Source of the DNA: Adhaeribacter aerolatus
GTDB lineage: Bacteria > Bacteroidota > Bacteroidia > Cytophagales > Hymenobacteraceae
DNA length: 64,000 bases
Direction of reading: 5' to 3'
Assembly: GCF_007991635.1 (NCBI RefSeq)
Contig: NZ_BJYS01000014.1
Span: 62,001 to 126,000, forward strand
The position numbers were made by a program, and so were the translations under genes. The notes beneath the pieces were generated by a model. It did not search any database. It had not been told where the DNA came from and saw only the letters and a program-made list of their open reading frames with translations. Shown piece after piece: positions 1,371 through 51,976 of this stretch; position 1 is the stretch's first letter, and each line of letters starts with the position of its first letter.

Positions 1371-2582
1371 ATGAAAAGAACCTCTAAAATATGTTTCGGT
1401 TGGGCTTTTTGGGCAGCTAATCTCCTGCTTAGTTCCGATTTAAAGGCCCAGGCTTTTGACCAATCGCTGCTGTGCCAGGGGCGCTATTACACCGAAACCG
1501 AAGGGAAAGCGGCGCTGGAAAAGTTTGCGGCTACTTACGCCAACCGAAAAGGCTGGGAGAAAAGAGCCGACCGCATTCGCCAGGGCATTTGGGAAGGAGC
1601 TAATCTGGAAGGCCTGCCTACCAATATCCCGTTAAAGCCAATCATCCACAGCAAACGTACTTACGATGGGTACACCGTCGAAAATATTGCCTTCGAAAGT
1701 TTACCCGGCTTCTTTGTAACCGGCAATTTATACCGGCCATTGGAGCCGCAAAAATCTTACGCCGCCATATTATCGCCCCACGGCCACGGTACTAATCCGC
1801 GCTTCAGCGAAGATATGCAGAAGCGTTGTGCTACCCTCGCCCGCATGGGCGCTATCGTACTGGCTTACGACATGGTAGGTACCGGCGATTCGGACCAAAC
1901 CATTCATAAACATCCGTATGCACTGCAACTGCAAACCCACAACAGCCGCCGGGCCATCGACTTCCTGCTTTCTTTGCCCAACGTAGACCCGAAACGGATT
2001 GGCGTAACCGGCGAATCAGGCGGCGGCACCCAGACCTTTTTACTAACGGCTTTAGATAAAAGAATCTCGGTTTCGGTGCCGGTGGTAATGGTATCGGCTT
2101 ACCATTTTGGTGGTTGTGTGTGCGAGAGCGGCATGCCGATCCATAAAAGCCCCAACCACCAAACCAGCAACGTAGAAATTGCCGCCTTGGCTGCCCCGCG
2201 CCCCATGCTGCTTGTATCGGATGGTAAAGACTGGACAAGCAACACCCCGGAAGTAGAGTACCCTTATATCCGCAACGTGTACCGCTTGTACGGCAAAGAG
2301 AAATTGGTGCAAAACCATCATCTTCCCACCGAAGGCCATAATTACGGCATTAACAAACGCAAAGGCGTTTACCCGTTCCTGGCACAGCACCTGAAACTTT
2401 CCTCAGCCAAAATAACCAATGCGCAAGGCGAAATTGATGAAAGCTTTGTAACCGTAGAAAAACCGGAAGTACTGCGGGTATTTAATGCGGAGCATACCCG
2501 GCCAGCTTACGCCGTGATGGGCGACGAATCGGTAACCAAACTCCTGCAGTCTTACGCAAAAACGGCCTCTACCAAAAAGTAA
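1371..2582 (+). CDS. Secreted alpha/beta-hydrolase, acetyl-esterase-like
   Basis: The product is a 403-residue alpha/beta-hydrolase of the acetylxylan-esterase/dienelactone-hydrolase-like group. Residues 1-27 form a Sec signal ending in LKAQA. The catalytic triad can be read: Ser216 in GESGGG, an Asp at 284 or 287 in SDGKD, and His323 in EGHNYG. An oxyanion-type SPHGHG motif lies near residue 134. Family members deacetylate or otherwise de-esterify plant polysaccharides, and substrate cannot be set from sequence. It lies 92 bp after the GH95 gene and 36 bp before the alcohol dehydrogenase, so it may head the same transcript. Its export separates it from the cytoplasmic enzymes that follow; it probably removes acyl groups that block the glycosidases. 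Confidence 0.82.
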   Translation: MKRTSKICFGWAFWAANLLLSSDLKAQAFDQSLLCQGRYYTETEGKAALEKFAATYANRKGWEKRADRIRQGIWEGANLEGLPTNIPLKPIIHSKRTYDGYTVENIAFESLPGFFVTGNLYRPLEPQKSYAAILSPHGHGTNPRFSEDMQKRCATLARMGAIVLAYDMVGTGDSDQTIHKHPYALQLQTHNSRRAIDFLLSLPNVDPKRIGVTGESGGGTQTFLLTALDKRISVSVPVVMVSAYHFGGCVCESGMPIHKSPNHQTSNVEIAALAAPRPMLLVSDGKDWTSNTPEVEYPYIRNVYRLYGKEKLVQNHHLPTEGHNYGINKRKGVYPFLAQHLKLSSAKITNAQGEIDESFVTVEKPEVLRVFNAEHTRPAYAVMGDESVTKLLQSYAKTASTKK

Positions 2583-2618: not shown

Positions 2619-3776
2619 ATGACGACTGCTACGCTGCCATTATCTATCCACTTTCCCGGAAAATTGGTTTTTGGTAATGGCTCACTGAATAATCTGGCTG
2701 AAGAAATAACAAAATTTAAACTGCCCAGGGTTTTCCTGTTAACTATCGAACCCTTGGTTCCGAAACTTCAGGGCCTTATCAGCAGTCTCGAAAGCCAAGG
2801 TATAAGCGTAGCCGTAGATACTTCTATTGTGCAGGAGCCCTCTTTTGCTGATTTTAATATTTTGCTGCAGGAAGCAGGCCGGCATAAACCGGATGTGGTA
2901 GTGGGAATCGGCGGCGGCAGTGTACTGGATGTAGCCAAACTGGTAGCCGCCCAGCTCGATAATACCCAAACCTTAGCCGAAATAGTAGGAATAGGTTTGC
3001 TAAAAGGAAGAAGCAAAAAATTAATTTGTATGCCGGCTACCTCCGGCACGGGCAGCGAGGTATCGCCCAACGCGATTCTGATAGATGATGCGGATAACCA
3101 GAAAAAAGGTATTATTAGCTCTTACCTCGTGCCCGATGTGGTATACGTAGACCCATTACTGACCATGAGTGTGCCGCCACAGATTACGGCCGCCACCGGC
3201 CTGGACGCCCTAACCCATTGCCTGGAAGCCTACACGAATAAATTTGCCCAGCCTTTTATTGATATGTACGCCTACGAAGGCATGCGCCTGATTGCCGCCC
3301 ACCTCGAACAAGCCGTGCAGGATGGCTCCAACAAAGAAGCTCGGTCGCAAGTGGCAATGGGTAGTTTGTTGGGTGGTTTTTGCTTAGGTCCGGTTAATAC
3401 CGCTGGTGTGCATGCCCTCTCCTACCCATTAGGCAGTACTTTTCACCTGCCGCATGGTCTTTCTAATGCGTTGTTGCTGCCCTTTGTGATGGAATTTAAT
3501 TTGTCGGCCGCTCCCCAACGCTATGCCGATGTGGCACGGGCTTTGGGCTGCCCGCCGGGTAGAACCGATGAAGAAACTGCGCAAAAAGGAATCGAAAAAA
3601 TCCGGCACCTGATAAAAGCATGCGGCATTCCGGCCCGGCTCCGGGAAGTAAATATTCCCGAAACCGCCATTCCGGAAATGGCCACCGATGCCCTTAAAAT
3701 TACCCGCTTACTTAAAAATAATCCCCGGCCTATCACTTTAGAAGATGCCATTAATATTTACCAAGCCGCTTATTAA
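2619..3776 (+). CDS. Iron-containing alcohol dehydrogenase
   Basis: This is a group III (Fe-ADH) NAD(P)-dependent alcohol/aldehyde oxidoreductase of 385 residues, cytoplasmic with no signal peptide. The nucleotide-binding GGGSVLD motif is at about residues 98-104, with PATSGTGSE at 139-147. Metal ligands follow the FucO pattern: Asp196, His200 (GLDALTH), His265 (GVHALSYPLG) and His279 (HLPHGLSN). It begins a tightly packed set: the DapA-type gene starts 6 bp after its stop, and the next two genes overlap. In this context the likely role is reducing an aldehyde produced by the neighbouring aldolase, for example a C4 semialdehyde acid to a tetronate. That is inference; lactaldehyde or 4-hydroxybutyrate-type reactions are alternatives. 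Confidence 0.9.
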   Translation: MTTATLPLSIHFPGKLVFGNGSLNNLAEEITKFKLPRVFLLTIEPLVPKLQGLISSLESQGISVAVDTSIVQEPSFADFNILLQEAGRHKPDVVVGIGGGSVLDVAKLVAAQLDNTQTLAEIVGIGLLKGRSKKLICMPATSGTGSEVSPNAILIDDADNQKKGIISSYLVPDVVYVDPLLTMSVPPQITAATGLDALTHCLEAYTNKFAQPFIDMYAYEGMRLIAAHLEQAVQDGSNKEARSQVAMGSLLGGFCLGPVNTAGVHALSYPLGSTFHLPHGLSNALLLPFVMEFNLSAAPQRYADVARALGCPPGRTDEETAQKGIEKIRHLIKACGIPARLREVNIPETAIPEMATDALKITRLLKNNPRPITLEDAINIYQAAY

Positions 3777-3782
3777 ACACAG

Positions 3783-4724
3783 ATGAAACAGCATAAAAAA
3801 TACCAGGGAATAGTCGTCCCAACGGTTACCCCACTGCGAGAAAATTACCAACTGGACCACGAGGCGGTAGAAAAAATATTTAAACATCTTCGCCGGAACC
3901 AAGCAATGCCTTTTATTTTAGGTACCACCGGGGAAGCGGCTTCCTTGCCTTTAAACTTGAAAAAGGAATTTATTCAACTGGCCGGTAAACTTAAACAACC
4001 GGGCAGTGTGCTGTACGGCGGCATTGCCTCTAACTGTCTGACCGAATCGGTGGAACTGGCAAAATATTGCTTTGACGCCGGCGTAGATGTGGTGGCCGCC
4101 CACCTTCCCTCCTATTACCCGCTGACGGAGAACCAGGTAAAGAAATATTTTGAGCAACTGGCCGACCAGGTTCCTGGACCATTAATTATATATAATATTC
4201 CGGCTACTACGCATTATTCCATTCCACTGCAATTAATTGAGGAATTAAGTTACCACGAGAAAATTGTGGGCACGAAAGATTCGGAACGCAGCGAAGAACG
4301 TTTGCGGGAATCATTGGCGTTGTGGGCGCACCGTGAAGATTTCAGCCATTTTTTAGGTTGGGCCGCTCAATCCGCGGAGGCCTTGTTTAACGGCAGCGAC
4401 GGTCTAATACCCAGTACCGGCAATCTGCACCCGGGCTTGTACCACCAAATGGTACTGGCCGTAAAGGCCGGAAACCGGGAAACAGCTTTTGCGCTCCAGA
4501 AGCTTTCGGACCGGCTGGGCAATCTTTACCAGGCTGGCCGCACCCTCGGCGAATCTTTATGGGCCCTGAAAGCGCTAATGCAGGAAGTAAACCTTTGCCA
4601 ACCCCACATGATGCCCCCGCTTCAATCTTTACCGGAGCCGGAAGCTGAGCAGTTACGACAGAATTTTTACGCCCTATTAAACGAAGAAGAAATTAATCTC
4701 CAAGAACTCCAAGTACATGTCTAA
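3783..4724 (+). CDS. DapA/NAL-family aldolase
   Basis: This class I aldolase of the dihydrodipicolinate synthase/N-acetylneuraminate lyase family has 313 residues. The TIM-barrel signatures are clear: GTTGE at 47-51 (pyruvate carboxylate binding), Tyr137 in IIYNIP, and Schiff-base Lys165 in VGTKDSE. The family condenses or cleaves 2-keto acids with pyruvate as the common partner. Lysine biosynthesis is unlikely because the gene sits between an Fe-ADH and a PdxA2/DUF1537 pair, all catabolic. Its 3' end overlaps the next start by 8 bp, implying translational coupling. The most economical role is retro-aldol cleavage of a 2-keto-3-deoxy sugar acid into pyruvate and an aldehyde acid. Which acid is not shown by sequence; Dha is proposed in the findings. 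Confidence 0.9.
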   Translation: MKQHKKYQGIVVPTVTPLRENYQLDHEAVEKIFKHLRRNQAMPFILGTTGEAASLPLNLKKEFIQLAGKLKQPGSVLYGGIASNCLTESVELAKYCFDAGVDVVAAHLPSYYPLTENQVKKYFEQLADQVPGPLIIYNIPATTHYSIPLQLIEELSYHEKIVGTKDSERSEERLRESLALWAHREDFSHFLGWAAQSAEALFNGSDGLIPSTGNLHPGLYHQMVLAVKAGNRETAFALQKLSDRLGNLYQAGRTLGESLWALKALMQEVNLCQPHMMPPLQSLPEPEAEQLRQNFYALLNEEEINLQELQVHV

Positions 4725-5772
4725 CAAACCTATCATCGGAATTACCATGGGCGACCCGGCCAGCATTGGGCCGGAAATTGCCATTAAAGCCCTCCTGGAC
4801 GAAAAGATTTACGCCATTTGCCGGCCCCTGCTGGTGGGCGATGCCGGTGTTTTTAACCAAACAATAAATAAACTAGGCCTTAAAGCCCAAATAAATACGG
4901 TTTCGGAAGTACAGTCAGCCAGGTTTAAATTTGGAGAGCCGGATGTACTCGACCTGCAGAATGTAAACCTGGCGCAATTAGCTTTTGGCGAAATATCGGC
5001 TATGGCGGGTAATGCCTCTTTCGAAGCTGTGAAGAAGGTGATTGACTTGGCTTTAGCCGGAGAAATAGATGCCACTGTTACCGGGCCCATCAACAAAAAA
5101 TCCATCAACGAAGCCGGCCACCACTTTGCTGGCCACACCGAAATTTACGCGCATTATACCGGAACCCGCAAATACGCGATGCTGCTGGTAGAAGAAAACA
5201 TGAAAGTAATTCACGTTTCCACGCACGTTTCACTGCGCCAGGCCTGCGACCTGGTAAAAAAAGATCGCATTCTGGAAGTGGTAGATTTGCTGCACCTGGG
5301 TATGCAACAGTTAGGCGAAACCAACCTCAAAATTGGCATTGCCGGGCTTAACCCGCACGCCGGGGATTCCGGTTTGTTCGGCACCGAAGACGACGAAGAA
5401 ATATTGCCAGCCGTGCAGGAAGCGTTGCGCCGCGGCTACGATGTAGAAGGTCCCGTACCGGCCGACACGATGTTTGCCAAAGCAGCTACCGGTTACTATG
5501 GCGGCGTAGTTGCCATGTACCACGACCAAGGCCATATTCCGTTTAAGCTCTCCGGCTTTAAGTGGAACGCCCAGAAAAAACAAATGGACAGCGTTAAGGG
5601 CGTAAATATTACCATGGGCCTGCCCATTATCCGAACCTCAGTAGACCACGGAACTGCTTTTGAAATTGCCGGTAAAGGCGTAGCCAGTCCGGATGCCATG
5701 GTGCTGGCCATCGAATCAGCCGTGCAGTTAGCCCGCCATAAAGTACTGCAAGCCGCTCCCGTATCCGAATGA
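4717..5772 (+). CDS. pdxA2: PdxA2-type 4-phospho-tetronate dehydrogenase
   Basis: This is a PdxA-superfamily metal-dependent oxidative decarboxylase of 351 residues. It shows GDPASIGPE at 12-20 and three metal-binding His at 170 (STHVSLR), 214 (LNPHAGD) and 269 (YHDQGHIP). PdxA itself acts in pyridoxal phosphate synthesis. PdxA2 paralogues next to DUF1537 kinases oxidise 4-phospho-D-threonate or 4-phospho-D-erythronate with NAD+, giving dihydroxyacetone phosphate and CO2. The 8-bp overlap with the aldolase upstream and the 4-bp ATGA overlap with the DUF1537 kinase downstream put it in the catabolic class. No other pyridoxine gene is present. Residues alone do not separate threonate from erythronate use. 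Confidence 0.88.
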   Translation: MSNKPIIGITMGDPASIGPEIAIKALLDEKIYAICRPLLVGDAGVFNQTINKLGLKAQINTVSEVQSARFKFGEPDVLDLQNVNLAQLAFGEISAMAGNASFEAVKKVIDLALAGEIDATVTGPINKKSINEAGHHFAGHTEIYAHYTGTRKYAMLLVEENMKVIHVSTHVSLRQACDLVKKDRILEVVDLLHLGMQQLGETNLKIGIAGLNPHAGDSGLFGTEDDEEILPAVQEALRRGYDVEGPVPADTMFAKAATGYYGGVVAMYHDQGHIPFKLSGFKWNAQKKQMDSVKGVNITMGLPIIRTSVDHGTAFEIAGKGVASPDAMVLAIESAVQLARHKVLQAAPVSE

Positions 5773-6929
5773 TAGCCGTAGTAGCAGATGATTTAACGGG
5801 AGCTGCCGAATTGGGGGGAATCGGGTTGCGCTACAACCTGAAGGTAGAAATCTGTACCCAGGTAAATGCCCAAACAAAGGCCGACCTGTTAATTATTTCT
5901 ACCGATTCCCGGTCTAAAAATAAAGAGGCTGCCGAAAAGGTAACTGAGAAGGTATTTCGGGAGCTACTACTCTTAAAACCGGAACTCATATATAAAAAAA
6001 TGGATTCGGTGTTACGGGGTCATGTGCTACCCGAAATACAGGCCCAGATGCGGGCGATGAATTTCCAAAGAGCTCTGTTGGTTCCGGCTAATCCGGCTTT
6101 GGGCCGCACCATTACTAATGGCATTTATTATTTACACGGTGTTCCTATTCAGGAGACCAGTTTTTCCCAGGACCCCGAATTTCCGCTTACATCGTCGCGG
6201 GTTGTAAATATTTTGCAGTCTGGAGATGAAGTAGTACAGGTACAAAGCTATAACCAACCGCTGCCGGAAGCCAGAATCCTTGTTGGGGAAGTGAGTTCTG
6301 CCGATGATTTAAAGGGCTGGGCGCAAAGCTTAGACACTGAAACTGCTTTGGCCGGGGCTTCGGGCTTTTTTACTGCATTGTTAGAATCAAAAGGCTACCT
6401 AGCAACTGAGACTACCGTTAGTTCAACCTTAAATCCGGGAAAGCCGGCCCTATTTGTTTGCGGCAGTACTTTTGCTAAAAGTCGGGCTTTGGTTAAGGCA
6501 GTGCATGTCAGCGGTGGGCCGATAAGCTATTTGCCCCCAGAATTATTATTAGAACCCAATATTTCTGAAGCGCAGGTAAAATTGTGGGCTGATGAAATAG
6601 TCTTTTTAATTCAAACTAACAATCAGGCTATTCTGGCCATTGACCCTGATTCTACTGTTAATATATCGGTTAATGCCGTTACCCTCCGGGATATAATGGC
6701 ACAAGCAATACAAAAAGTTTTTAAGCAGATTGGATTAACAGAACTTTATTTAGAAGGCGGTTCTACGGCAGCAGCAATATTCGAGCGATTGGGTTTTAAC
6801 CAATTTTATCCGCAGCAGGAACTGGCACCCGGGGTTATCCGGATGCAGGTTGCAGGCTTGCCAAACCTGCACCTAACCCTTAAGCCCGGCAGTTACGATT
6901 GGCCACCCACCGTCTGGAACTTCAACTAA
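5769..6929 (+). CDS. DUF1537 four-carbon acid-sugar kinase (DtnK-like)
   Basis: This is an ATP-dependent kinase of the DUF1537 family, 386 residues, cytoplasmic. The N-terminal signature ADDLTGAAE is at 6-14 and YKKMDSVLRGH at 75-85; both are in the acid-sugar-binding domain. A C-terminal nucleotide-binding domain carries LEGGSTAAAI. The family phosphorylates the terminal hydroxyl of C4 acids such as D-threonate, D-erythronate or 3-oxo-tetronate. The ATGA start/stop overlap with pdxA2 places kinase and dehydrogenase in fixed ratio, the arrangement known for D-threonate/D-erythronate catabolism. Its sequence differs clearly from the second DUF1537 gene at 37403-38803, which starts YYGDDFTGSTDA, so the two are not a recent duplication and probably serve different substrates. 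Confidence 0.88.
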   Translation: MIAVVADDLTGAAELGGIGLRYNLKVEICTQVNAQTKADLLIISTDSRSKNKEAAEKVTEKVFRELLLLKPELIYKKMDSVLRGHVLPEIQAQMRAMNFQRALLVPANPALGRTITNGIYYLHGVPIQETSFSQDPEFPLTSSRVVNILQSGDEVVQVQSYNQPLPEARILVGEVSSADDLKGWAQSLDTETALAGASGFFTALLESKGYLATETTVSSTLNPGKPALFVCGSTFAKSRALVKAVHVSGGPISYLPPELLLEPNISEAQVKLWADEIVFLIQTNNQAILAIDPDSTVNISVNAVTLRDIMAQAIQKVFKQIGLTELYLEGGSTAAAIFERLGFNQFYPQQELAPGVIRMQVAGLPNLHLTLKPGSYDWPPTVWNFN

Positions 6930-6948
6930 CACCCCAACCACCACACCT

Positions 6949-8544
6949 ATGACCACCACCGCCACTTTACATTTTCTAGATTACCTCATTATTTTCCTCT
7001 TCCTGGCCGTATCGCTGTATTTTGGTTTGCGGTTTGCCCGGAAACAAAAAACTACCCAAACCTACTTTGCCGCCAACGGCAATATTCCTTCCTGGGCCAT
7101 TGGTTTATCGCTTTTAGCCACCTTAATCAGCAGTGTTACTTTTCTGGCTTATCCGGGTACCGGTTATTCCTCTAACTGGATTTTGCTAGTGCAAGGCCTG
7201 ATGGTACCCATTGTACTCCTGGGCACTATCTGGTTTATTGTGCCGCTGTACCGGCGCGTAATTGGCTTAAGCACCTACGAATATTTCGAAAAACGCTTTG
7301 GGGCATTTGCCCGGTATTACAGTTCTTTTGGCTTTGTGCTCCGCCAGTTTTCTTCTATGGGCACAGTGTTTTACCTTTTGGCACTGGCTTTAAATAACAT
7401 GATAGGGGCCAACACCCTGTTGGTGATTTCGGTAGTAGGGGCGGTAATAATTTTATTAACGTTGCTGGGGGGTATTGAAGCGGCAATCTGGCTCGATGTG
7501 CTGCAAGGTTTTATGCTGTTTGGCAGCGGCATTGTTTGTTTAAGTATTCTGGTTTTCGCGGTGGACGGCGGTCCGGCTACGGTTTGGGAGATTGCCCAGG
7601 AAAACGGACGTACTGGTTTTGGGCCGTATGACCTTGATTTTACCCGGCTTACTTTTGCGGTAATGGCCATAAACGGCGCTTTTTATGCCATTCAGAAATA
7701 CGGCACCGACCAAACTGTGGTGCAACGTTATTTAACGGCTAAAACCGATAAATCTGCAATCCGGGCTTCTTTGCTGGGCATTTTGCTTACCGTACCAATC
7801 TGGACCATGTTTATGCTGATTGGTACGGCACTCTTTGTTTATTACCAGCAACAACCTTTACCAGTCGGCATAAAAGCCGAAGCGGTTTTTCCTTATTTTA
7901 TCATGACCAAGCTGCCCGTAGGCGTGGTAGGATTACTCCTGGCTTCTATGATTTCGGCGGCAGTTTGCAGTTTAAGCGCCGATTTAAATTGCTTAGCTGC
8001 CGTTGGTGTGGAAGATTATTACAAGAAAATCAAGCCCAACCGCCCGGATAAAGAGTATCTGCTGGCCGGCAAATGGATGGTAGTAGTTTCGGGCATTGTG
8101 GCTATTTTAATTGCCTCCCTTTACTTAATGGCCGGCGACGAAGGGGTTTTGAGCATGATATTTACGCTGTACGCGATATTTTCCGGGGGGATAGTAGGTA
8201 TTTTTCTGCTGGGTCTGTTTTCGGCCCGGGCTAACCAGCAAGGGCTTAACATTGGCATCCTGGTTTGTGTGCTGTTCACCGCCTACGCTTTTCTGTCGTC
8301 CACGGAAATTGGCATCGGCGAAAATAAATCCCTGCTCCTGGACCTAGGCCCTTATAATTTTACCCATCACAAATATATGCTGGGCGTTTACAGTCACCTG
8401 ATTGTAATTGGGGTGGGTTATGTGGCCAGTTTGTTTTTCCCGAAACCAATTTTGGATAAAAATCTGCTATATAGTGGTTGGCTCGAAAACCGCCGGGCCG
8501 AAAAGAAATTAATTCGAGCAAATAAAGAAGTGGTGGTGCAATAA
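6949..8544 (+). CDS. Sodium:solute symporter (SSS family)
   Basis: This is an inner-membrane Na+-coupled transporter of the SSS/SGLT family with 531 residues and about 13 hydrophobic segments. It opens with the usual YLIIFLFLAVSLYFG helix followed by a polar RFARKQKTTQTYFAA segment. The helix-2 region with LLATLISSVTFLAYPG and the AAVCSLSADLNCLAAV stretch resemble the Na+-site helices of the family. It follows the kinase by 19 bp and closes the operon, so it most likely imports the sugar acid or a related small acid consumed by the four enzymes upstream. SSS substrates range from sugars to carboxylates, so the ligand is not assignable. A 173-bp gap then precedes the GH127 gene. Confidence 0.9.
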   Translation: MTTTATLHFLDYLIIFLFLAVSLYFGLRFARKQKTTQTYFAANGNIPSWAIGLSLLATLISSVTFLAYPGTGYSSNWILLVQGLMVPIVLLGTIWFIVPLYRRVIGLSTYEYFEKRFGAFARYYSSFGFVLRQFSSMGTVFYLLALALNNMIGANTLLVISVVGAVIILLTLLGGIEAAIWLDVLQGFMLFGSGIVCLSILVFAVDGGPATVWEIAQENGRTGFGPYDLDFTRLTFAVMAINGAFYAIQKYGTDQTVVQRYLTAKTDKSAIRASLLGILLTVPIWTMFMLIGTALFVYYQQQPLPVGIKAEAVFPYFIMTKLPVGVVGLLLASMISAAVCSLSADLNCLAAVGVEDYYKKIKPNRPDKEYLLAGKWMVVVSGIVAILIASLYLMAGDEGVLSMIFTLYAIFSGGIVGIFLLGLFSARANQQGLNIGILVCVLFTAYAFLSSTEIGIGENKSLLLDLGPYNFTHHKYMLGVYSHLIVIGVGYVASLFFPKPILDKNLLYSGWLENRRAEKKLIRANKEVVVQ

Positions 8545-8717: not shown

Positions 8718-10760
8718 ATGAATAAATCATTCCGCCTGGTTTTATTGGCCTTATCGGGAGCCTTGTTACCGCAGAAAGATCTGCTGGCGCAGAATAAAGG
8801 CTTGCTAAATAATTCCAAAAGTCCCTATGCCCAATTACGCAACGTTGATATGGTCGATGTAGTTTGGACAAAAGGTTTCTGGGCCGACCGGTTTCAGGTG
8901 TGCAAAGAAACTATGGTGCCAAATATTGTGCGGATTTACAAAGACCCCGAAATCAGCCATGCCTTCCGGAATTTTGAAATTGCGGCTGGTCTGGAAAAGG
9001 GAACCCACACCGGCCCTTCCTTCCACGACGGCGATTTTTACAAAGTTTTTGAATCAGTAGCGGCCGCTTACGCCGTAACCAAAGACGAAAAACTGAACCA
9101 ACTCATGGACCAGAGCATTGCGGTAATGGCCAAAGCCCAACGAGCCGATGGTTACCTGCATACACCGGTTATTATCAAGGAAAAATCGCAATCGGCTGAG
9201 GCCAAGGTACAGCAGGATAAGTTACTTTTTGAAGCCTATAACTTTGGGCACCTCATGACGGCCGCTTGTGTGCATTACCGGGCTACCGGCAAAACCTCAT
9301 TCCTGGATGTAGCCAAAAAAGCCACCGATTACCTGTACAACTTCTACAAAAATGCCTCGCCGGAATATGCCCGCAACGCCATTTGCCCGTCGCACTACAT
9401 GGGTGTGGTAGAAATGTACCGCACTACCCGCGATCCTAAATACCTGGAATTAGTAAAAAAACTCATTGATATCCGGGGTCACGCCGGCGATATTGGCACC
9501 GACGACAACCAGGACCGCATTCCGTTCCGGGACATGAAAAAAGTTTCGGGCCACGCCGTAAGAGCTAATTATTTGTTTGCTGGTGTAGCCGATGTTTACG
9601 CTGAAACCGGCGACAAAACCTTGTTGTCGACGCTGGATTTGATGTGGAACGACGTGGTGAACCGGAAAATGTACGTTACCGGTGCTACGGGCTCTTTGTA
9701 CGATGGCGTATCGCCGGACGGCACCGCTTACAAACCCGATACCGTACAGAAAGTACACCAGGCCTACGGCCGCGATTACCAGTTGCCTAACTTAACCGCC
9801 CATAACGAAACCTGCGCCAATATTGGCAATGTGCTCTGGAATTGGCGGATGCTGCAGCTCACCGGCCAGGCCAAATATACCGATGTAATGGAATTAGCCC
9901 TCTACAACAGCGTATTGTCGGGTATTAGCCTCGATGGTACCAAGTTTTTATATACTAATCCCCTTAGTTTCTCCGATAAACTGCCTTTCAGCCAGCGGTG
10001 GTCGAAGGACCGGGTGGGCTATATTAAAAAATCGAACTGTTGCCCGCCCAACGTGGTGCGCACTATTGCCGAGTTAAATAATTACGCTTACAGCATTGCC
10101 GATAAAGGTGTTTATTTTAACCTGTATGGCGGCAATACCCTCAACACCAAACTAAAAGATGGCTCGGTGGTAAAACTTACCCAGGAAACCAATTACCCCT
10201 GGGATGGCAATATTAAAGTAAACTTGGAGCAGGTTCCTAATAAAGCATTCTCGCTTTTTATGCGGATTCCGGGCTGGGCCAATGGGGCCAAAATTCTGGT
10301 AAACGGCAAACCTTATACCCAAACCAAATTTACCGCCGGCGAATACGCCGAGTTGAATGGCAAATGGAAAAAAGGTGATAAAATAGAATTAACCTTACCT
10401 ATGGAAGTAAAACTGCTGGAGGCAAACCCGCTGGTAGAAGAAACCCGCAATCAGGTAGCCGTAAAGCGTGGCCCAGTGGTTTATTGCGTTGAATCGGTGG
10501 ACATGGGTAGTCAGGATATTTTCAAAGTAACCATTCCGGCCGATATTCAGCTTACTCCTAAACTAACCAAAATCCAGAACAGCGACGTGATGAGTTTAGA
10601 AGGCACCGCCAAATTGGTACAAACGGGTGACTGGAAAAATCAGTTGTACAAAGAAGTAAGCCGGGATAATAAAACCACTCAGCTAAAATTAGTACCCTAC
10701 TACACCTGGGGAAACCGGGGCCATTCTGAAATGTCGGTTTGGATGCCGTTGAGCCGGTAA
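8718..10760 (+). CDS. GH127 beta-L-arabinofuranosidase-family enzyme
   Basis: This is an exported 680-residue glycosidase of family GH127, with a Sec signal over residues 1-25. The zinc/cysteine centre typical of the family is present: Glu364 and Cys366 in HNETCANI, and the Cys441-Cys442 pair in SNCCPPN, whose first Cys is the nucleophile in characterised homologues. The fold is an (alpha/alpha)6 barrel followed by beta-sandwich domains with NLYGGN and MRIPGWA motifs. Known activities are beta-L-arabinofuranosidase and, in an RG-II system, aceric-acid hydrolase. RG-II side chain D is beta-L-Araf linked to Dha, so an arabinofuranosidase directly after the proposed Dha operon makes sense. It has a 173-bp leader of its own, and its exact linkage is not provable here. 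Confidence 0.9.
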   Translation: MNKSFRLVLLALSGALLPQKDLLAQNKGLLNNSKSPYAQLRNVDMVDVVWTKGFWADRFQVCKETMVPNIVRIYKDPEISHAFRNFEIAAGLEKGTHTGPSFHDGDFYKVFESVAAAYAVTKDEKLNQLMDQSIAVMAKAQRADGYLHTPVIIKEKSQSAEAKVQQDKLLFEAYNFGHLMTAACVHYRATGKTSFLDVAKKATDYLYNFYKNASPEYARNAICPSHYMGVVEMYRTTRDPKYLELVKKLIDIRGHAGDIGTDDNQDRIPFRDMKKVSGHAVRANYLFAGVADVYAETGDKTLLSTLDLMWNDVVNRKMYVTGATGSLYDGVSPDGTAYKPDTVQKVHQAYGRDYQLPNLTAHNETCANIGNVLWNWRMLQLTGQAKYTDVMELALYNSVLSGISLDGTKFLYTNPLSFSDKLPFSQRWSKDRVGYIKKSNCCPPNVVRTIAELNNYAYSIADKGVYFNLYGGNTLNTKLKDGSVVKLTQETNYPWDGNIKVNLEQVPNKAFSLFMRIPGWANGAKILVNGKPYTQTKFTAGEYAELNGKWKKGDKIELTLPMEVKLLEANPLVEETRNQVAVKRGPVVYCVESVDMGSQDIFKVTIPADIQLTPKLTKIQNSDVMSLEGTAKLVQTGDWKNQLYKEVSRDNKTTQLKLVPYYTWGNRGHSEMSVWMPLSR

Positions 10761-12768: not shown

Positions 12769-14307
12769 CTATTTAGCCAAAGCTGGTTCTACCATAATCT
12801 TAGGTTTAGGATTCACAACAGAATGGCTACCCAGCGCCTTTTGCCAGCCCAAGTAATATTTTTGCACTTGGGGTTGCATTTCGCCGGGGTTAACCTGGGT
12901 TTTAGTAGTATTCAGGGTTTTTAGTTGTTCAATATTCTGGAAAATACCCGCTTTTAATCCGGCTAAATACGCTGCTCCCAGCGCCGACACCTCCGGCATC
13001 ACTATTTTTACCACTGGTTTTTCTAGTAAATCAGCCAGAAACTGAACTACAAAATTATTAGTGGTAATACCACCATCTACCATTAAAGCGGCCAAATCAA
13101 TGCCGGCATCCAGTTCCATGGCCTGAATCACATCTTTAATCTGGTACGGGATAGATTCCAGCGCGGCTCTTACAATATGGTTTTTATTACAATCAAAAGT
13201 AAGCCCCGTAATGGAAGCTTTCCGGCTCATATCCCAATGCGGCGCGCCCAATCCGCTGAAAGCCGGCACCAGGTAAACGCCGTTATTATCCGGCACCGCT
13301 TGCGCCATGGCTTCGGTTTGCCGGCTATCGGATAATATTCCCAACTCATTTTTCAGCCACTCAATGGTAGCGCCGCAGGTTACTATTACGCCTTCCAAAG
13401 CATAATCAACCCGCTCTTCGGTGCTCCAGCAAATAGTCGTAATCATGCCCCGGCCCGAGAGCTTTGGTTCCTCTCCAATATTCATCATAATAGAAGAACC
13501 CGTACCCATGGTAGCCTTAGCCGTGCCGGGTGCAAAACAGCCCTCACCGAAGGCCGCCGCGTGCGAATCGCCAATCATACTGGTAATCTTTATTGGTTCC
13601 GGCAACAAGCCCCCAAAATCAGTTTCTCCGAAAAGAGCAGCGGAGGGTTTAGGTTCGGGCAAATTCAGACGGGAAAGGCCAAATTGCGCCAATAGCTCCT
13701 GATCCCAGGTAAGTTCCGAAAGATTAAAAAACAGCGTACGCGAGGCATTGGTATAATCGGTTAAATAACTTTTACCTCCTGTTAATTTGTAGAGCAGCCA
13801 GGTATCGATGGTACCAAAAAAAGCTTTACCGGCATCTATGGCTTCCCTTACAGCAGCAATATTTTCGTAAAGCCAGATAAGTTTGGTGCCGGAAAAGTAA
13901 GGGTCGATAATTAATCCGGTTTTTTGCCGTACTGTCTCAGTTAATCCCTGTTGGGTTAGGCGCTCACAAATATTAATGGAACGTTTGCATTGCCACACTA
14001 CCGCATTATATAACGGCGTTCCGGCTTCGTCCCATACCACAAAAGTTTCGCGCTGGTTAGAAATGCCAATCGCCTGAATATTACTTAACTCCTCTCCCTG
14101 CGCCGTAAATTGCGTAAGACATTGCCCCACCGATTGCAAAACGTTCCGGTAAATTTCTTTGGGTTGTTGCTCTACGTGCCCTCCTTCTGAATAATAGGTT
14201 TTCAGAGGTTCGGAACCACGGGCAACTACTTTTCCTTCGACATCAAATATCAGGGTTTTGGTACTGCTGGTGCCCTGGTCGATGGCCAGGATATAAGAGC
14301 TTTTCAT
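12769..14307 (-). CDS. FGGY-family carbohydrate kinase (glycerol-kinase-like; apulose kinase candidate)
   Basis: This is a 512-residue FGGY kinase, cytoplasmic. It begins with the phosphate-binding motif AIDQGTSSTK, has the SNQRET stretch shared with glycerol kinase, a GDSHAAAFGEGC segment, and the nucleotide motif MVDGGITTNN in the C-terminal domain. By overall look it would be auto-annotated as glycerol kinase. However, it ends an operon with an aldose isomerase, split transketolase and ribose-type ABC importer. In the published D-apiose pathway the isomerised sugar D-apulose is phosphorylated before the transketolase step. That transketolase also releases dihydroxyacetone, which glycerol-type kinases can phosphorylate. 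Either use fits. A 124-bp gap containing GATATTTATATATC separates it from the permease gene, so it may have its own promoter. Confidence 0.88.
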   Translation of the reverse strand: MKSSYILAIDQGTSSTKTLIFDVEGKVVARGSEPLKTYYSEGGHVEQQPKEIYRNVLQSVGQCLTQFTAQGEELSNIQAIGISNQRETFVVWDEAGTPLYNAVVWQCKRSINICERLTQQGLTETVRQKTGLIIDPYFSGTKLIWLYENIAAVREAIDAGKAFFGTIDTWLLYKLTGGKSYLTDYTNASRTLFFNLSELTWDQELLAQFGLSRLNLPEPKPSAALFGETDFGGLLPEPIKITSMIGDSHAAAFGEGCFAPGTAKATMGTGSSIMMNIGEEPKLSGRGMITTICWSTEERVDYALEGVIVTCGATIEWLKNELGILSDSRQTEAMAQAVPDNNGVYLVPAFSGLGAPHWDMSRKASITGLTFDCNKNHIVRAALESIPYQIKDVIQAMELDAGIDLAALMVDGGITTNNFVVQFLADLLEKPVVKIVMPEVSALGAAYLAGLKAGIFQNIEQLKTLNTTKTQVNPGEMQPQVQKYYLGWQKALGSHSVVNPKPKIMVEPALAK

Positions 14308-14314
14308 TGTATTT

Positions 14315-14328
14315 GATATTTATATATC
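14315..14328. promoter_or_regulatory. GATATTTATATATC near-palindrome before the kinase
   Basis: A 14-bp near-palindrome (GATAT...ATATC ends) lies 8 bp upstream of the kinase start. A 13/14 match in inverted orientation occurs at 24383-24396 before the DeoR gene, and the core ATATTTATAT recurs at 8635, 37393 and 49559. It may be a regulator site or promoter element; AT-rich background makes chance matches likely. Confidence 0.3.
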
Positions 14329-14431
14329 ACCTACCAAATAATAATAGAGAGACATTATTTTAGTAAATAGAACAACCGGAAAATTACAGGTCTGGTTAAC
14401 CTTAGAATATTTCAGAAGGATTAAGCAGTAA

Positions 14432-15472
14432 TTATTCTGATTTAGAATTGGCTTTATCGATAATTACCGCCAGTAAAATAACTAGGCCTTTAACTACCTG
14501 CTGCCAGAACGGCGAAACGTTTAACAGCACCAGCCCATTATTCAGGACCCCGATGATAATGGCTCCTTGCACCGTACCCAGAATACTGCCCCGGCCACCC
14601 GACAAAGACGTGCCGCCGATTACCACCGCCGCAATCGCATCTAACTCATAACTAATACCAGCGTTGGGTTGGGCCGAATCGAGGCGGGAAGTAACAATAA
14701 TGCCCCCTATAGCTGCTAAGCCGCCGGCTATGGCGTACACCGTAGTTTTTACTTTGTTTATGTTAATACCCGAAAGGCGGGCGGCACTTTCGTTGCCCCC
14801 AATGGCGTATATGTAGCGGCCCAACCGGGTTTTGTTCGTTAAAATAACAGCCATCACCACAATTACGCCGGAAATCCAGACCGGAACCGGAATACCCAAC
14901 AACCAACCAGTACCGATGTAAGCAAAATCAGCTCCTAGTCCCGAGATTGGAAAGCCTTTTGTATACAACATGGTTAAACCCCGGGCAATGGTGAGCACGG
15001 CCAAAGTTGCCACAAAAGGCGGAACCTTAAACCGGGTAATGGTCCAGCCGTTAAAAGTGCCCAGCAAAGTACCCGTCAGCATTCCGGCCATCACCGCCCC
15101 TAGCAAAGTAAAGCCAATAAATAAATCCTGCGACGGCAACTCAATCCCAAACTTTAGTAAGCCTGCGGTAATAGCCCCGCAAAGCGCCAATACCGATCCC
15201 ACCGATAAATCGATACCAGCCGTGAGTACCACCAAGGTCATGCCAACCGAAATACAAATATTTACGGAGATTTGCCGCATCACATTCCAGCCGTTTGCCA
15301 CGGTCAAAAACTTATCCGATAGCAGACTAATAATCAGGCATAAAATAAAGAGGGCAATTAAAGACTGAAACTTTACGAGGTATTGGCTGTACGAACTAGA
15401 TAAGGCTGAAGCCTTTAGGGATGGGGTCTGGACCTGGGCTTTTTCCTCTTTTACAAAAACTTTAGGGCTCAT
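14432..15472 (-). CDS. Ribose-type ABC transporter permease
   Basis: This is an inner-membrane permease of the RbsC/AraH family with 346 residues. After a roughly 35-residue cytoplasmic N-terminus there are about eight to ten hydrophobic segments. The family motif GIDLSVGSVLALCGAI is near residue 85, and GGNESAARLSGI, the loop that meets the ATPase, is near 225. The gene follows the ATPase gene by 13 bp. With the ATPase, binding protein and DUF2291 protein it forms a complete sugar importer, proposed here to carry D-apiose or the sugar entering the isomerase/kinase/transketolase route. The ligand is inferred from neighbours only. Confidence 0.92.
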   Translation of the reverse strand: MSPKVFVKEEKAQVQTPSLKASALSSSYSQYLVKFQSLIALFILCLIISLLSDKFLTVANGWNVMRQISVNICISVGMTLVVLTAGIDLSVGSVLALCGAITAGLLKFGIELPSQDLFIGFTLLGAVMAGMLTGTLLGTFNGWTITRFKVPPFVATLAVLTIARGLTMLYTKGFPISGLGADFAYIGTGWLLGIPVPVWISGVIVVMAVILTNKTRLGRYIYAIGGNESAARLSGININKVKTTVYAIAGGLAAIGGIIVTSRLDSAQPNAGISYELDAIAAVVIGGTSLSGGRGSILGTVQGAIIIGVLNNGLVLLNVSPFWQQVVKGLVILLAVIIDKANSKSE

Positions 15473-15485
15473 AGTGGTGGCTTAG

Positions 15486-16991
15486 TTAAATAGTGTTGGG
15501 AATGGCCGCTTTCAAAATGCCATCTTCAGTAGCCTCTTCTATCGCGAATTCGGCGGTCAAACGGCCTTCGGCCATCACCAGAATGCGGTCCGAAACCGAT
15601 AATATTTCGGGCAATTCCGAAGAAACCACAATAATGCCCAGGCCGGCATCGGCTAACTCCTGGATTAGCTTATAGATTTCGCTTTTGGCGTTAATATCAA
15701 TGCCGCGGGTAGGTTCGTCGAGTAATAAAATCTGGGGTTTAGTAGCCAGCCATTTGGCCAGCACAATTTTTTGCTGATTGCCACCGCTCAAGTTACCGGC
15801 CGTTTGTTTCTCCGATGAGGTTTTGATTTTTAACTCGCGGATATATTTCTCTGATAGGTGTAATTCTTTGCGATTATTTAAAAATCCCGCGTCTTCTAAA
15901 TCCGCCAGGGTAGTCAGGCAAATATTGGTTTGCACGTCCAGACCTAATACTAATCCGTCTTTTTTCCGGTCTTCCGGTACCAGGGCCAAGCCGGCTTTGA
16001 TGGCCTCGCCTGGCGATTTTAGCTTTACCGGCTGTTGGCAGATAGTTAGCTGGCCGCTGGAAAGTTTGGGGTGCAAGCCAAAAACAGTTTCCAGCAATTC
16101 GGTTCGTCCGGCTCCCATTAACCCAAAAAGTCCCAATATTTCGCCTCGGTGCAGCGTAAAAGAAATTGTTTTTAGCAGGTTCTGGTCTTTCCGGACCGGG
16201 TGCTTTAAACAAATATTCTCCAGGGTAAGCAGTTCCTTTCCCTGGTTGTTGTTTGTTTTCTTGCGGCTGATAATAATTTCGCGACCTACCATTTTTTGGA
16301 TAAGTCGTTCCTGGCAAACATCCTTCATTTCGCCGGCTTCAATGCACCGGCCGTCACGTAGTACCACAAACCTGTCCGCAATCCGGAACAGCTCATCCAG
16401 TTTATGCGACACATAAACAATGGCTTTATTTTCGCGTTTGAGGTCCTCGATAATACCAAACAAAACCTCTACCTCGCTATCGCTAATGGCCGAGGTGGGT
16501 TCATCCATAATGATGACCTCCGATTCGTCCAATAAGGCTTTGGCAATTTCCACCACCTGCTGCTGCCCTACTTTCAACTCACCAACCAGCGTGTCGGGCG
16601 CTACTTCCAGCTTTAATTTATGCAGCAGCAATTGGGTCCGGCGCCGCATTTCCTTTTGGTTAAGGGTACCCCAGTTGGTAATAATTTCGCGACCCAGGAA
16701 TATATTTTCGGTGATACTTAAATACGGCACCAAGTTTAGCTCCTGGTGAATAATGGCAATTCCGGAACGTTGCGCTTCACGCGGATTAGCAAAATTAACC
16801 AACTGGCCCCGGAACAAAATACGGCCTTCGTAATCCGGATAAACTCCCGACAAAATTTTCATCAGGGTAGATTTACCCGCGCCGTTTTCGCCGATCAGGG
16901 CCGTCACCTTACCCGCCTCAATTTCCAGGCACACGTTTTCCAGCGCAACCACGCCCGAAAATTTTTTGGTTATATTTTCTGCTACTAACAA
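15486..16991 (-). CDS. Ribose-type ABC transporter ATP-binding protein
   Basis: This is the duplicated-domain ATPase of a CUT2 (RbsA/MglA) importer, 501 residues. Domain 1 has Walker A GENGAGKST near residue 36 and Walker B IIMDEPTSAI. Domain 2 has the usual degenerate Walker A (GLMGAGRTE), signature LSGGNQQK and Walker B LLLDEPTRGID. It energises the permease encoded just downstream. A 144-bp gap separates it from the DUF2291 gene upstream, larger than other gaps in the operon, so a secondary promoter is possible. A long opposite-strand open frame over it is a shadow. Confidence 0.93.
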   Translation of the reverse strand: MLVAENITKKFSGVVALENVCLEIEAGKVTALIGENGAGKSTLMKILSGVYPDYEGRILFRGQLVNFANPREAQRSGIAIIHQELNLVPYLSITENIFLGREIITNWGTLNQKEMRRRTQLLLHKLKLEVAPDTLVGELKVGQQQVVEIAKALLDESEVIIMDEPTSAISDSEVEVLFGIIEDLKRENKAIVYVSHKLDELFRIADRFVVLRDGRCIEAGEMKDVCQERLIQKMVGREIIISRKKTNNNQGKELLTLENICLKHPVRKDQNLLKTISFTLHRGEILGLFGLMGAGRTELLETVFGLHPKLSSGQLTICQQPVKLKSPGEAIKAGLALVPEDRKKDGLVLGLDVQTNICLTTLADLEDAGFLNNRKELHLSEKYIRELKIKTSSEKQTAGNLSGGNQQKIVLAKWLATKPQILLLDEPTRGIDINAKSEIYKLIQELADAGLGIIVVSSELPEILSVSDRILVMAEGRLTAEFAIEEATEDGILKAAIPNTI

Positions 16992-17135
16992 TTTTTTTGT
17001 GGTGATTTTAAGTAGTGGTGGTGGCTTTAGTCTGTTTGGTATTCTAGCTAATCATAAATATTCATTTGTCTTTTACCATCCCTTTATTCAGGCGCCATTT
17101 CGTTGTATTTGAATTATTTTAGCAGCACCATAAAT

Positions 17136-17774
17136 TTAATCCCGCACCAGTTTTAGCGAAACCGGAATAACTTCAATCTCGTCTAGCCGCAGGTGGGCCT
17201 GGTTTAACTCAATAGCCCCGGTAAACGCTACCACGTCGCCTTTTTTAGCCTGGGCCCGGAACGGCGGTATTATTTCGGTGCGGATTTTCTTATTCAGTTC
17301 GGCCGAAACATTATTCATATCCATGGTATTGCTGAAGTCGTTGATACTCAAAATCCCCAGGGCATCCCGTACCGCATTGCCGTAAACAAACTCGGTGGCT
17401 ATTTTCACATCCTTGCCTACCGAATCCGGAAGCAGTGTCACAGAAATATCGTTTTCATTAATAGCTGTTATTTTCCCTTCGCCTTTTATTAAAAAGTATC
17501 GCAGGTTGCCGATGCCCAAAGCATGGGAATAATTTTTGAAAGCGTTCTCTTTTTCGGATTTAAGCAGCGTCAGCAGTTCCGGCAGATTGTTGGCTTTGGT
17601 TAAGCCGGGGGTTAGTTTTTCTTTCCAGAAAGTTTGGGCATAAGCGGCTGCATCAAATTTACCGACAGTAGAAGCGGCTTTTACCTCGCTTAGCTTTTTG
17701 ATGTAAACCGAGTTATAGCCAACAACCAGGAGCAGGATAAGAGCAACGGTATATTTTATTACTTTCTTTTGCAT
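17136..17774 (-). CDS. DUF2291 periplasmic protein of a sugar ABC system
   Basis: This 212-residue protein has one N-terminal hydrophobic anchor (about residues 8-22) and an extracytoplasmic domain containing FDAAAYAQTFWKEKL. It fits DUF2291, a family of predicted periplasmic proteins found almost only beside CUT2-type sugar importers. Its biochemical role is unknown. Five bases separate it from the binding-protein gene upstream, so the two are probably made together. No lipobox is evident, so it is likely held by its uncleaved helix. A role in helping the binding protein or importer assemble is a guess from context. Confidence 0.8.
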   Translation of the reverse strand: MQKKVIKYTVALILLLVVGYNSVYIKKLSEVKAASTVGKFDAAAYAQTFWKEKLTPGLTKANNLPELLTLLKSEKENAFKNYSHALGIGNLRYFLIKGEGKITAINENDISVTLLPDSVGKDVKIATEFVYGNAVRDALGILSINDFSNTMDMNNVSAELNKKIRTEIIPPFRAQAKKGDVVAFTGAIELNQAHLRLDEIEVIPVSLKLVRD

Positions 17775-17779
17775 AGCTC

Positions 17780-18727
17780 TTAGTTTTTGGCTACTTCCAG
17801 GTAATCCGAAACATTTTGCTGGTTAACCATTTCCACAGCCACCGGCATCTTTTTCGGGAAATCCCGTTTGCCTTTAAAATATTCATCGGCAAAGGTGGCA
17901 GCGGTCTGGGCCATTACTTTCGGGTATTGCATACCGGTAGCCACAATTTTTCCTTCCTTAATAGAACCTACTACATCCTGGGCCCCGTCGAAACCAAAAA
18001 CTTTAACTTTGTTCGCCAGTCCGGCCGCTACCAGGGCCTGGTAAGCGCCCATAGCCATGGCATCGTTGCCGCAAAAAACCGCAGTAATATCGGGGTTGGC
18101 CTGCAAAATAGATTCCAGCACTTCCATCGCTTTGTTCCGGTCGAAGTCGGCGCTTTGCTGGGCTACCATTTTCAGGTCGGGGTAATTATCTACCACACTG
18201 TGAAATCCTTTGGAGCGGGCCCAGGTATTGTTATCGCCTACCAGCCCCAACAGCTCCACGTATTTGCCCTTTTTATTCATTTGCTGCACAAAATACTTCC
18301 CAATGGTTACGCAACCCGAATAACTATCCGATAAGATTTGAGAAGTGGCGGCTTCCGGCGAATTTACTTCCCGGTCCATGCAAAAAACCGGCACCCCGGC
18401 TTCTTTCGCTTTCAGCACATTTACAATAGAACCATCGGCATCGGTAGGGTTAAATAATACGGCGCTAAAACCGGAGGCAATGGCATTCTCGAAATGGTCG
18501 GTTTCTAAAGCGGTGTTATTCTGGGAGTCGAATATTTTAGCTTCGTAGCCCAAAGCGCGCGCTTTTTCGGCGGCGGTTTCGGCCAGTACCACAAACCAAG
18601 GATTATTTAGGGTAGAAATAATAACGGCTATTTTCTTCGGCTCATCGCCCCCATTTTTCTTACCACAGCTTCCCACCACCAAAAGGGTGAGTAACAACGA
18701 AAGCAGGATGGTTAATTTATTTCTCAT
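17780..18727 (-). CDS. Sugar ABC transporter substrate-binding lipoprotein
   Basis: This is an RbsB-like periplasmic binding protein (type 1 fold, Peripla_BP_4), 315 residues. The signal ends in a lipobox around LLVVGSC, giving a lipoprotein with Cys21. The mature part opens [16 protein letters not shown], the conserved first strand and ligand-contact loop of pentose-binding proteins. VFCMDREV and FGFDGAQDV match later ligand-contact segments, where Asp and Arg hydrogen-bond sugar hydroxyls. Published screens found that some proteins of this class bind D-apiose; the operon suggests that ligand here. Binding-pocket residues cannot be modelled by eye. Confidence 0.9.
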
Positions 18728-18746
18728 ATTTTCCGCTTAAAATTAA

Positions 18747-20156: not shown

Positions 20157-20177
20157 AGGACTAATATTTGGAAAGGA

Positions 20178-21152: not shown

Positions 21153-21277
21153 TCTTTAATCGTTATAAAAGTTTTACTTTTGGCTGTTGACCACGCTAAA
21201 TGCCAGCCATAATTAGATGGTTATTGAACCTAAATATTTACTATGGAAAGCTGTTTAACCCGACACGACTTGTTTTT

Positions 21278-22102: not shown

Positions 22103-22136
22103 TTACGATATTAATTAAAAGGCAATCCGGAAAAAA

Positions 22137-23543: not shown

Positions 23544-23583
23544 ACTATGTGTTTGCTCCTGTATTTGTGCGAAGGATAATTTT

Positions 23584-36518: not shown

Positions 36519-36526
36519 AAACCAAG

Positions 36527-37189: not shown

Positions 37190-37271
37190 GAGGTACTATT
37201 TGGTGGTGAATAATAATTATGTGCGGTAATATTTTATAATTTGATAATAAAAAGGTCAAGCAACTCACCTT

Positions 37272-37328
37272 TGTCATTCAGGAGGTACCTATTTGGCTAC
37301 CTGCTAAATAGGTTCTTCCTGAATGACA
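37272..37328. repeat. Inverted repeat, 23-bp arms with two mismatches
   Basis: Arms 37272-37294 and 37306-37328 pair over 23 bp with two mismatches (TGTCATTCAGGA outer part) around an 11-base loop. It lies between the kinase and racemase genes of one operon. It may act as a partial terminator, an RNA-stability hairpin, or a dispersed extragenic repeat of this genome. Confidence 0.75.
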
Positions 37329-37402
37329 GAAATGGGCTCAACAGAAATAAAGAGGTTGAAGGGCTTTTATCTAAATCTATATAGTTTTTAAAATATTTAT
37401 AT

Positions 37403-51959: not shown

Positions 51960-51976
51960 AAATATTTGCGTATGCC

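Follow-up and report, generated by a model that had tools for sequence, protein, structure and literature searches.

Rhamnogalacturonan II (RG-II) is a plant cell-wall pectin with sugars that are rare elsewhere, and enzymes that release one of these sugars, 3-deoxy-D-lyxo-heptulosarate (Dha), are known. How could a bacterium use the freed Dha inside the cell? We addressed this question at a five-gene operon in a stretch of 64,000 nucleotides from Adhaeribacter aerolatus (contig NZ_BJYS01000014.1, positions 62,001 to 126,000; hereafter the window, with coordinates counted from its first nucleotide). Based on its gene content, its conservation and its association with glycoside hydrolase family 143 (GH143), this operon probably catabolises Dha released from RG-II. 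It consists of the following genes:

2619..3776, + strand: iron-containing alcohol dehydrogenase (Fe-ADH; Pfam Fe-ADH and ADH_Fe_C), candidate D-threuronate (tetruronate) reductase by predicted substrate
3783..4724, + strand: aldolase of the DapA/N-acetylneuraminate-lyase superfamily (Pfam DHDPS), candidate Dha aldolase yielding pyruvate and D-threuronate, by predicted substrate
4717..5772, + strand: PdxA2-like dehydrogenase (Pfam PdxA; PDB matches), candidate decarboxylating 4-phospho-D-threonate dehydrogenase yielding dihydroxyacetone phosphate (DHAP)
5769..6929, + strand: DUF1537 kinase (Pfam SBD_N and NBD_C), candidate D-threonate 4-kinase
6949..8544, + strand: sodium:solute symporter (SSF; TIGR00813, 212 bits, cut-off 184), candidate Dha importer

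All five proteins score above the cut-offs of their Pfam families (Fe-ADH with ADH_Fe_C, DHDPS, PdxA, SBD_N with NBD_C, and SSF). The coordinates of the open reading frames give overlaps of 8 bp between the aldolase and PdxA genes and of 4 bp between the PdxA and DUF1537 genes, and together with the Pfam matches they bear out the five genes, positions and overlaps proposed in a first-pass annotation of this DNA. The Fe-ADH (PF00465, 132 bits; PF25137, 194 bits; both above cut-off) has 1,3-propanediol oxidoreductase, NAD-dependent methanol dehydrogenase and lactaldehyde reductase as its closest solved structures. The operon is embedded in a longer stretch of plus-strand genes. A scan for regulatory sites returned 18 promoter-like sites (15.2 expected from shuffled sequence) and 24 terminator-like sites (16.9 expected), and was not used as evidence.

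What would such a gene set do with Dha? To our knowledge, Dha is the only RG-II component that yields pyruvate and a four-carbon acid. By computation, cleavage of Dha (D-lyxo) between C3 and C4 gives a four-carbon aldehyde acid of D-threo configuration, and reduction and renumbering of this acid give D-threonate, as the first-pass annotation had worked out. We propose that a GH143 enzyme would free Dha from side chain D of RG-II and that the symporter would import it. The DapA-type aldolase would then split Dha between C3 and C4 into pyruvate and D-threuronate, which the Fe-ADH could reduce with NADH to D-threonate. The DUF1537 kinase would convert D-threonate to 4-phospho-D-threonate, and the PdxA2-like enzyme would oxidise and decarboxylate this compound to DHAP, CO2 and NADH. 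The net conversion would be Dha + ATP to pyruvate + DHAP + CO2, with the redox balance closed by the PdxA step returning the NADH spent by the ADH. Every substrate and reaction here is inferred, from the observed genes, their order, the conservation of the set, the link to GH143 and the stereochemical match. The hypothesis is thus well delimited, with five proteins and one chemical prediction, namely that pyruvate and DHAP form from Dha.

A candidate for the enzyme that would supply the substrate is encoded in the same window, 39 kb downstream of the operon:

47581..49449, - strand: stand-alone GH143 Dha hydrolase (5mqr residues 24-615, 803 bits, E 1.8e-240; PF24067, 424 bits)

The depositors of 5mqr named it beta-L-arabinobiosidase, and PF24067 is the BT_1020-like N-terminal beta propeller. 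We take BT1020 to be the founder of GH143 and the GH143 propeller to be its N-terminal module, an assignment that draws on this assumption and on a published passage about a five-bladed propeller. According to that passage (PMC6811678), the five-bladed propeller of the GH143 founder carries the site of Dha hydrolysis, and its arabinofuranosidase site is a separate one. The GH143 gene of the window clusters with genes of rhamnosidase-like, BNR_2, GH88, GH43 and apiosidase families.

Is the operon found in those genomes that encode a Dha hydrolase? Overlapping draws of 321 genomes from the window's order and 395 from its class were searched (genomes and loci are designated below by our sample handles, G and L). 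The aldolase occurs at E <= 1e-50 in 9 of the 321 order genomes and GH143 above cut-off in 35, and all nine fall among those 35 (hypergeometric probability 8e-10); by genus, 7 of 7 with the aldolase are among the 16 of 119 with a GH143 match at E <= 0.001 (2e-7), after post-hoc removal of ten paralogous or marginal GH143 matches the result is 9 of 9 among 25 of 321 (2e-11), and in the class draw both orthologs (A. aerolatus itself and G110) are among the 12 of 395 genomes with GH143 above cut-off (8e-4), all of these being figures that overstate independence, given the relatedness of the genomes and the overlap of the draws. The genome of Paraflavisolibacter caeni, which also encodes an ortholog, has GH143 as well, for a total of 11 GH143-positive genomes among 11 with the operon. 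Co-occurrence with GH143, which had been suggested as a check on the Dha assignment, was therefore observed, and the presence of the operon could serve to flag potential Dha users among bacteria.

Nine of the 35 order GH143 matches are low (331-358 bits). The eight of these whose surroundings were examined (L191, L192, L196, L198-L201, L203) are paralogs of 42-44% identity with no matched RG-II enzyme genes adjoining, and this second PF24067 group may act on another substrate. Three paralog-bearing genomes (G242, G548 and G556) have an aceric acid hydrolase elsewhere in the genome. G584 was classed as a paralog by score alone; G437, where GH143 passes the cut-off only with its neighbours, was excluded from the counts of PdxA, aceric acid hydrolase and RuBisCO-like protein given below. 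DUF1537 alone was found in 8 of the 395 class genomes (five of them with GH143), a count left out of use for the operon because, beyond the two operon kinases, these proteins are OiaK-like or lie in G202, G207 and G327, which lack GH143.

Gene order is conserved along with gene content. The order ADH-aldolase-PdxA-DUF1537 was found on one strand in all 11 genomes with the aldolase, and is therefore not a matter of chance. In nine of the 11 the kinase gene is followed directly, on its own strand, by the symporter gene; in G637 and G564 the symporter gene lies on the opposite strand and the other side. GH143 is less than 20 kb from the aldolase in five of the 11 genomes (G667, 4.6 kb; G679, 6.9 kb; G664, 9.3 kb; G683, 16.4 kb; P. 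caeni, 17.4 kb) and 45 kb away in A. aerolatus. In G667, genes for DUF6298, GH143, BNR_2, ADH, aldolase, PdxA, DUF1537, a symporter-esterase fusion, a TIM-barrel protein and aceric acid hydrolase follow one another on the same strand, GH143 being the second gene upstream of the ADH. A BNR_2 relative also separates the GH143 and ADH genes in G679 and G664. The G648 operon is flanked by DUF6298 and apiosidase genes, and in G110 a probable apiose cassette directly precedes the five genes.

Does the aldolase itself fit such a substrate? It scores 128 bits on PF00701 (cut-off 22.1) and misses the named NCBIfam equivalogs (dapA, 128 of 206 bits; NanA, 103 of 281; archaeal 2-keto-3-deoxygluconate aldolase, 106 of 390). 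K165 and Y137 align with catalytic residues of E. coli NanA, DapA and YagE, K165 presumably being the Schiff-base lysine and Y137 presumably sharing in catalysis. The 11 operon aldolases form a single clade in the tree (support 100/99) and all retain K165 and Y137. Within it Arg169 and Trp193 are invariant and occur in none of nine comparator aldolases, Arg173 is invariant and occurs in one of the nine, and Ala194-Ala195 take the positions of the acidic pair of NanA and YagE. These residues would be compatible with a dianionic substrate, although they are not proof of one. A role in Dha cleavage would give a function to a clade that automatic annotation places merely in the dihydrodipicolinate synthase family.

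A protein of G095 was considered as a further relative of the operon aldolase and rejected, being 34% identical, outside the clade and with no ADH, PdxA or DUF1537 gene adjoining; it was excluded from the operon counts. It is 48% identical to the DapA3 protein of Rufibacter tibetensis described below, its genome lacks GH143, and no L-fucose isomerase gene was found within the 19 kb examined. A scan of the genome collection, made with a two-row alignment and poor patterns, returned at least 10 loci. P. caeni is the sole ortholog among the 10 listed; the other nine listed are 25-32% identical, with no ADH, PdxA or DUF1537 match adjoining and with a symporter match in three.

RG-II-related genes flank the operon on both sides, and a third set, on the minus strand, could also be involved in the use of an RG-II sugar:

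1371..2582, + strand: BT1017-type alpha/beta hydrolase of the RG-II pectin methylesterase kind (6goc, 259 bits, E 7e-76), 36 bp upstream of the ADH
8718..10760, + strand: GH127, aceric acid hydrolase by NCBIfam (NF049879, 1181 bits, cut-off 950), 173 bp after the symporter
35196..40047, - strand: RuBisCO-like protein, second DUF1537 kinase, Asp/Glu racemase-like protein and BASS-type transporter, candidate aceric acid route

6GOC is BT1017, an RG-II methylesterase (PMC7939467). The esterase gene of the window is preceded on the same strand by GH28-type and GH95-type genes (named by eye). A BT1017-like esterase is fused to the operon symporter in G679, G664 and G667. Between the two parts of these fusions (L084 4484-7438, L085 4852-7830 and L086 4360-7326) a leader-like stretch was noticed by eye.

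The GH127 protein had been read in the first-pass annotation as acting on the beta-L-arabinofuranose that caps Dha, and thus as a tie to side chain D. It matches 5mqo, which we take to be BT1003, with 880 bits (378 for the next GH127 structure). The name under which 5mqo was deposited, non-reducing end beta-L-arabinofuranosidase, would by itself mislead. Aceric acid is a sugar of RG-II side chain B. A side chain D arabinofuranosidase is ruled out by the NF049879 match, and the proposed tie fails because the neighbour is of the aceric acid hydrolase type.

Several observations weigh against a role of the operon in Dha catabolism. The top PDB match of its PdxA, 4jqp (287 bits), is named 4-hydroxythreonine-4-phosphate dehydrogenase, and precedes 2hi1 (268 bits), 6e85 (258 bits; deposited as D-threonate 4-phosphate dehydrogenase) and E. 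coli PdxA (183 bits). With 302 bits the window's PdxA stays under the cut-off (583) of the D-threonate 4-phosphate dehydrogenase model NF002891, a model that gives three operon PdxA 302-331 bits and three biosynthetic PdxA 231-248 bits. It passes the general PdxA model TIGR00557 (334 bits, cut-off 290), on which the operon PdxA of G648 and G110 reach 340 bits each and the three biosynthetic PdxA 381-393 bits, a model that does not separate PdxA from PdxA2. From these scores the operon PdxA leans towards PdxA2 yet passes the general model alone. Its earlier naming as PdxA2 holds in so far as the three biosynthetic PdxA lie further from D-threonate 4-phosphate dehydrogenases than it does; the specific model does not back the name. 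Similarly, the kinase scores 131 bits against a cut-off of 450 on the D-threonate kinase model NF047819, the better of two NCBIfam models for the operon DUF1537. The distribution of PdxA, on the other hand, favours the Dha reading: a PdxA 34-40% identical to that of the operon occurs in all 36 genomes examined (34 of the 35 order genomes with GH143 over cut-off, G110 and P. caeni), and a second PdxA (at least 61% identical) in exactly the 11 operon genomes.

Further points against Dha come from the distribution of the operon. Of the 25 order genomes whose GH143 is of the RG-II type, 16 gave no hit to the aldolase at E <= 1e-50 and showed no such gene set next to GH143; life on RG-II therefore does not depend on the operon. 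Because of the kinship among the genomes, the probabilities given above do not describe independent events. Aceric acid hydrolase over cut-off is present in all 11 operon genomes (and in 30 of the 36 examined), so that co-occurrence alone cannot single out Dha. GH143 is far from the operon or on another contig in G456, G637, G648, G564 and G110. A further DapA-like protein, DapA2, adjoins a symporter in A. aerolatus, G664 and G188; it is found in 23 of 27 RG-II genomes, at 9-18 kb from GH143 in six g2-genus genomes and one g200 genome. Near GH143 in operon-negative genomes, this DapA2 and symporter pair was the sole aldolase alternative seen.

Could the operon instead degrade the aceric acid that the neighbouring GH127 would free? 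The ADH would then reduce the aldehyde, kinase and PdxA would form a 5-deoxypentulose 1-phosphate, and an aldolase would cleave this to DHAP and acetaldehyde. The hydrolase is the next gene in the window, lies 8.5 kb from the aldolase in G667 and is present in all 11 operon genomes. However, the operon aldolase is of the pyruvate-dependent, Schiff-base DapA type, which an aceric acid route would leave unused, and reduced aceric acid, worked out by hand, has the erythronate and not the threonate configuration. The aldolase is less than 20 kb from the hydrolase in two of the 11 genomes, as against five of 11 for GH143, and three different cassettes adjoin the hydrolase in different genomes. One of these fits the chemistry better. 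It contains the RuBisCO-like/DUF1537 pair (37403-40047 in the window), whose nearest models are OiaX (NF042437, 507 bits) and OiaK (NF042436, 441 bits), both under the cut-off of 700, and it is next to the hydrolase in three of 10 neighbourhoods (G664 and G080, where the two share a strand, and G648, where they diverge). The cassette is conserved among RG-II degraders; of 39 genomes with GH143, 16 encode the RuBisCO-like protein. From structural reasoning we infer that the 2-ketose of aceric acid shares its head group with 3-oxo-isoapionate, and the RuBisCO-like protein as decarboxylase and the second DUF1537 kinase could act on this ketose to give 5-deoxypentulose 1-phosphate. With this cassette as a candidate aceric acid route, we give very little credence to the degradation of aceric acid by the operon.

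We think it just as improbable that the operon degrades 3-deoxy-D-manno-octulosonic acid (Kdo) of RG-II side chain C, with the aldolase yielding pyruvate and D-arabinose and the other genes processing the pentose. DapA relatives do act on ulosonic-type acids, and the BNR_2 gene that precedes the ADH in G679, G664 and G667 encodes a possible ulosonic acid hydrolase, but it is hard to see what a tetronate-type kinase, a PdxA and a reductase would do with D-arabinose. Furthermore, an L-fucose isomerase (1096 bits, cut-off 775) is encoded with another DapA-type aldolase (DapA3) and a symporter on a Rufibacter tibetensis plasmid (L225 4190-10685), in G683 and in G648 (cassettes L241 5929-12509 and L242 2900-10113). 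L-fucose isomerase also acts on D-arabinose, and this cassette is a candidate Kdo route through D-arabinose. In R. tibetensis it adjoins an aceric acid hydrolase gene, and the genome (G576) has GH143 and no operon aldolase match at E <= 1e-50. The isomerase cassette and the operon are present together in G683 and in G648 (where the isomerase lies three genes away from the symporter), which indicates that aldolase cassettes with different partner enzymes coexist, each set suiting one aldehyde.

A service to D-threonate or another soluble C4-C7 sugar acid unlinked to RG-II, with the RG-II neighbours reflecting a pectin habitat, is also unlikely, if less so than either alternative above. Such a service would suit the DUF1537 and PdxA genes found without an annotated aldolase or ADH within 6 kb on Rhizobium and Gemmobacter plasmids (two of four DUF1537 places examined, from 25 records). 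The surroundings of three operons also point this way: that of G456 adjoins an IlvD/Edd-type sugar-acid dehydratase and a GntP-like permease (both named by eye), and those of G637 and G564, away from matched RG-II genes, adjoin a LacI-type regulator, a Gfo/Idh-like protein (by eye) and SusC/D. Another substrate is thus possible in these genomes. Against an unlinked substrate stand the occurrence of the operon solely in GH143 genomes (11 of 11, in the two overlapping draws and the scan matches listed) and its position beside RG-II genes in the window, G683, G679, G664, G667, G648 and P. caeni. We therefore favour Dha as the substrate, on the strength of the chemistry, the linkage to GH143 and the existence of other cassettes suited to Kdo and, probably, to aceric acid.

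How does the proposed route for Dha compare with known systems? D-threonate is reportedly the substrate of a route to DHAP by a DUF1537 kinase (DtnK) and PdxA2, in work of Zhang et al. from 2016. The last two steps proposed here would use the same enzyme families on the same stereoisomer, whereas the operon combines the two with an aldolase, an ADH and a symporter, and both its kinase and its PdxA are under the cut-offs of the D-threonate models. In the GarL-GarR-GarK route for galactarate and glucarate, an aldolase splits a keto-deoxy aldarate into pyruvate and a semialdehyde acid, and reduction and then phosphorylation follow. The operon pathway would have these reactions in the same sequence, but on a substrate one carbon longer that yields a C4 acid, with a DapA-type instead of a GarL aldolase, with an Fe-ADH as reductase and with the need for a PdxA-type decarboxylation. 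The L225 cassette of R. tibetensis shares with the window a DapA-type aldolase and a sodium symporter beside an aceric acid hydrolase, but an isomerase there replaces the ADH, kinase and PdxA, and its aldolase is about 30% identical to that of the operon. From the RG-II system of Bacteroides thetaiotaomicron the window has relatives of BT1020, BT1017 and 5mqo (presumably BT1003, as above); those enzymes release sugars, whereas the operon is a candidate for the use of free Dha inside the cell. The OiaK and OiaX proteins of 3-oxo-isoapionate metabolism provide the nearest models to the window's second DUF1537 and RuBisCO-like proteins, which miss the cut-offs and whose genes in some genomes adjoin aceric acid hydrolase. 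The parts of the proposed Dha route belong to known enzyme families; the pathway and the specificity of the aldolase would be new. In agreement with the first-pass annotation, which knew of no described route, no Dha catabolic pathway was found in the open-licence literature among the matches listed, a portion of the record beside which an unseen publication is possible.

Further features of the window are the following:

11063-12478, - strand: P-loop NTPase (KAP-type by eye), between the RG-II genes and the apiose cassette
12769..24348, - strand: probable D-apiose cassette (FGGY kinase, ribose-type ABC transporter, split transketolase, isomerase-like protein, DeoR)
45094..46236, - strand: sialidase-like BNR_2 protein (Pfam BNR_2, 316 bits; weak match to sialidase B)
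50538..51995, - strand: apiosidase-family protein (GH140 type; PF13204, 377 bits) of the RG-II cluster
51977-55147, - strand: DUF6298 protein of 1056 aa, kept beside GH143 and apiosidase genes in many mapped RG-II clusters

The apiose label of the cassette presumably goes back to work of Carter et al. from 2018, and the cassette is also found in G110 and G683 and, in part, in other genomes. It is conceivable, at somewhat less than even chance, that the window carries cassettes for three rare RG-II sugars (apiose, Dha and aceric acid), and that a fourth one, for Kdo and containing L-fucose isomerase, is present in related genomes. If this were true, the intracellular half of RG-II degradation, so far missing, would for the most part be filled in, and a RuBisCO-like protein would gain a new role. 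The BNR_2 protein of the window is a possible ulosonic acid hydrolase, and the DUF6298 protein is possibly an undescribed RG-II enzyme. Beyond the right end of the window, on the same contig (C14), the A. aerolatus DapA2 and its symporter are encoded at L009 4122-6728.

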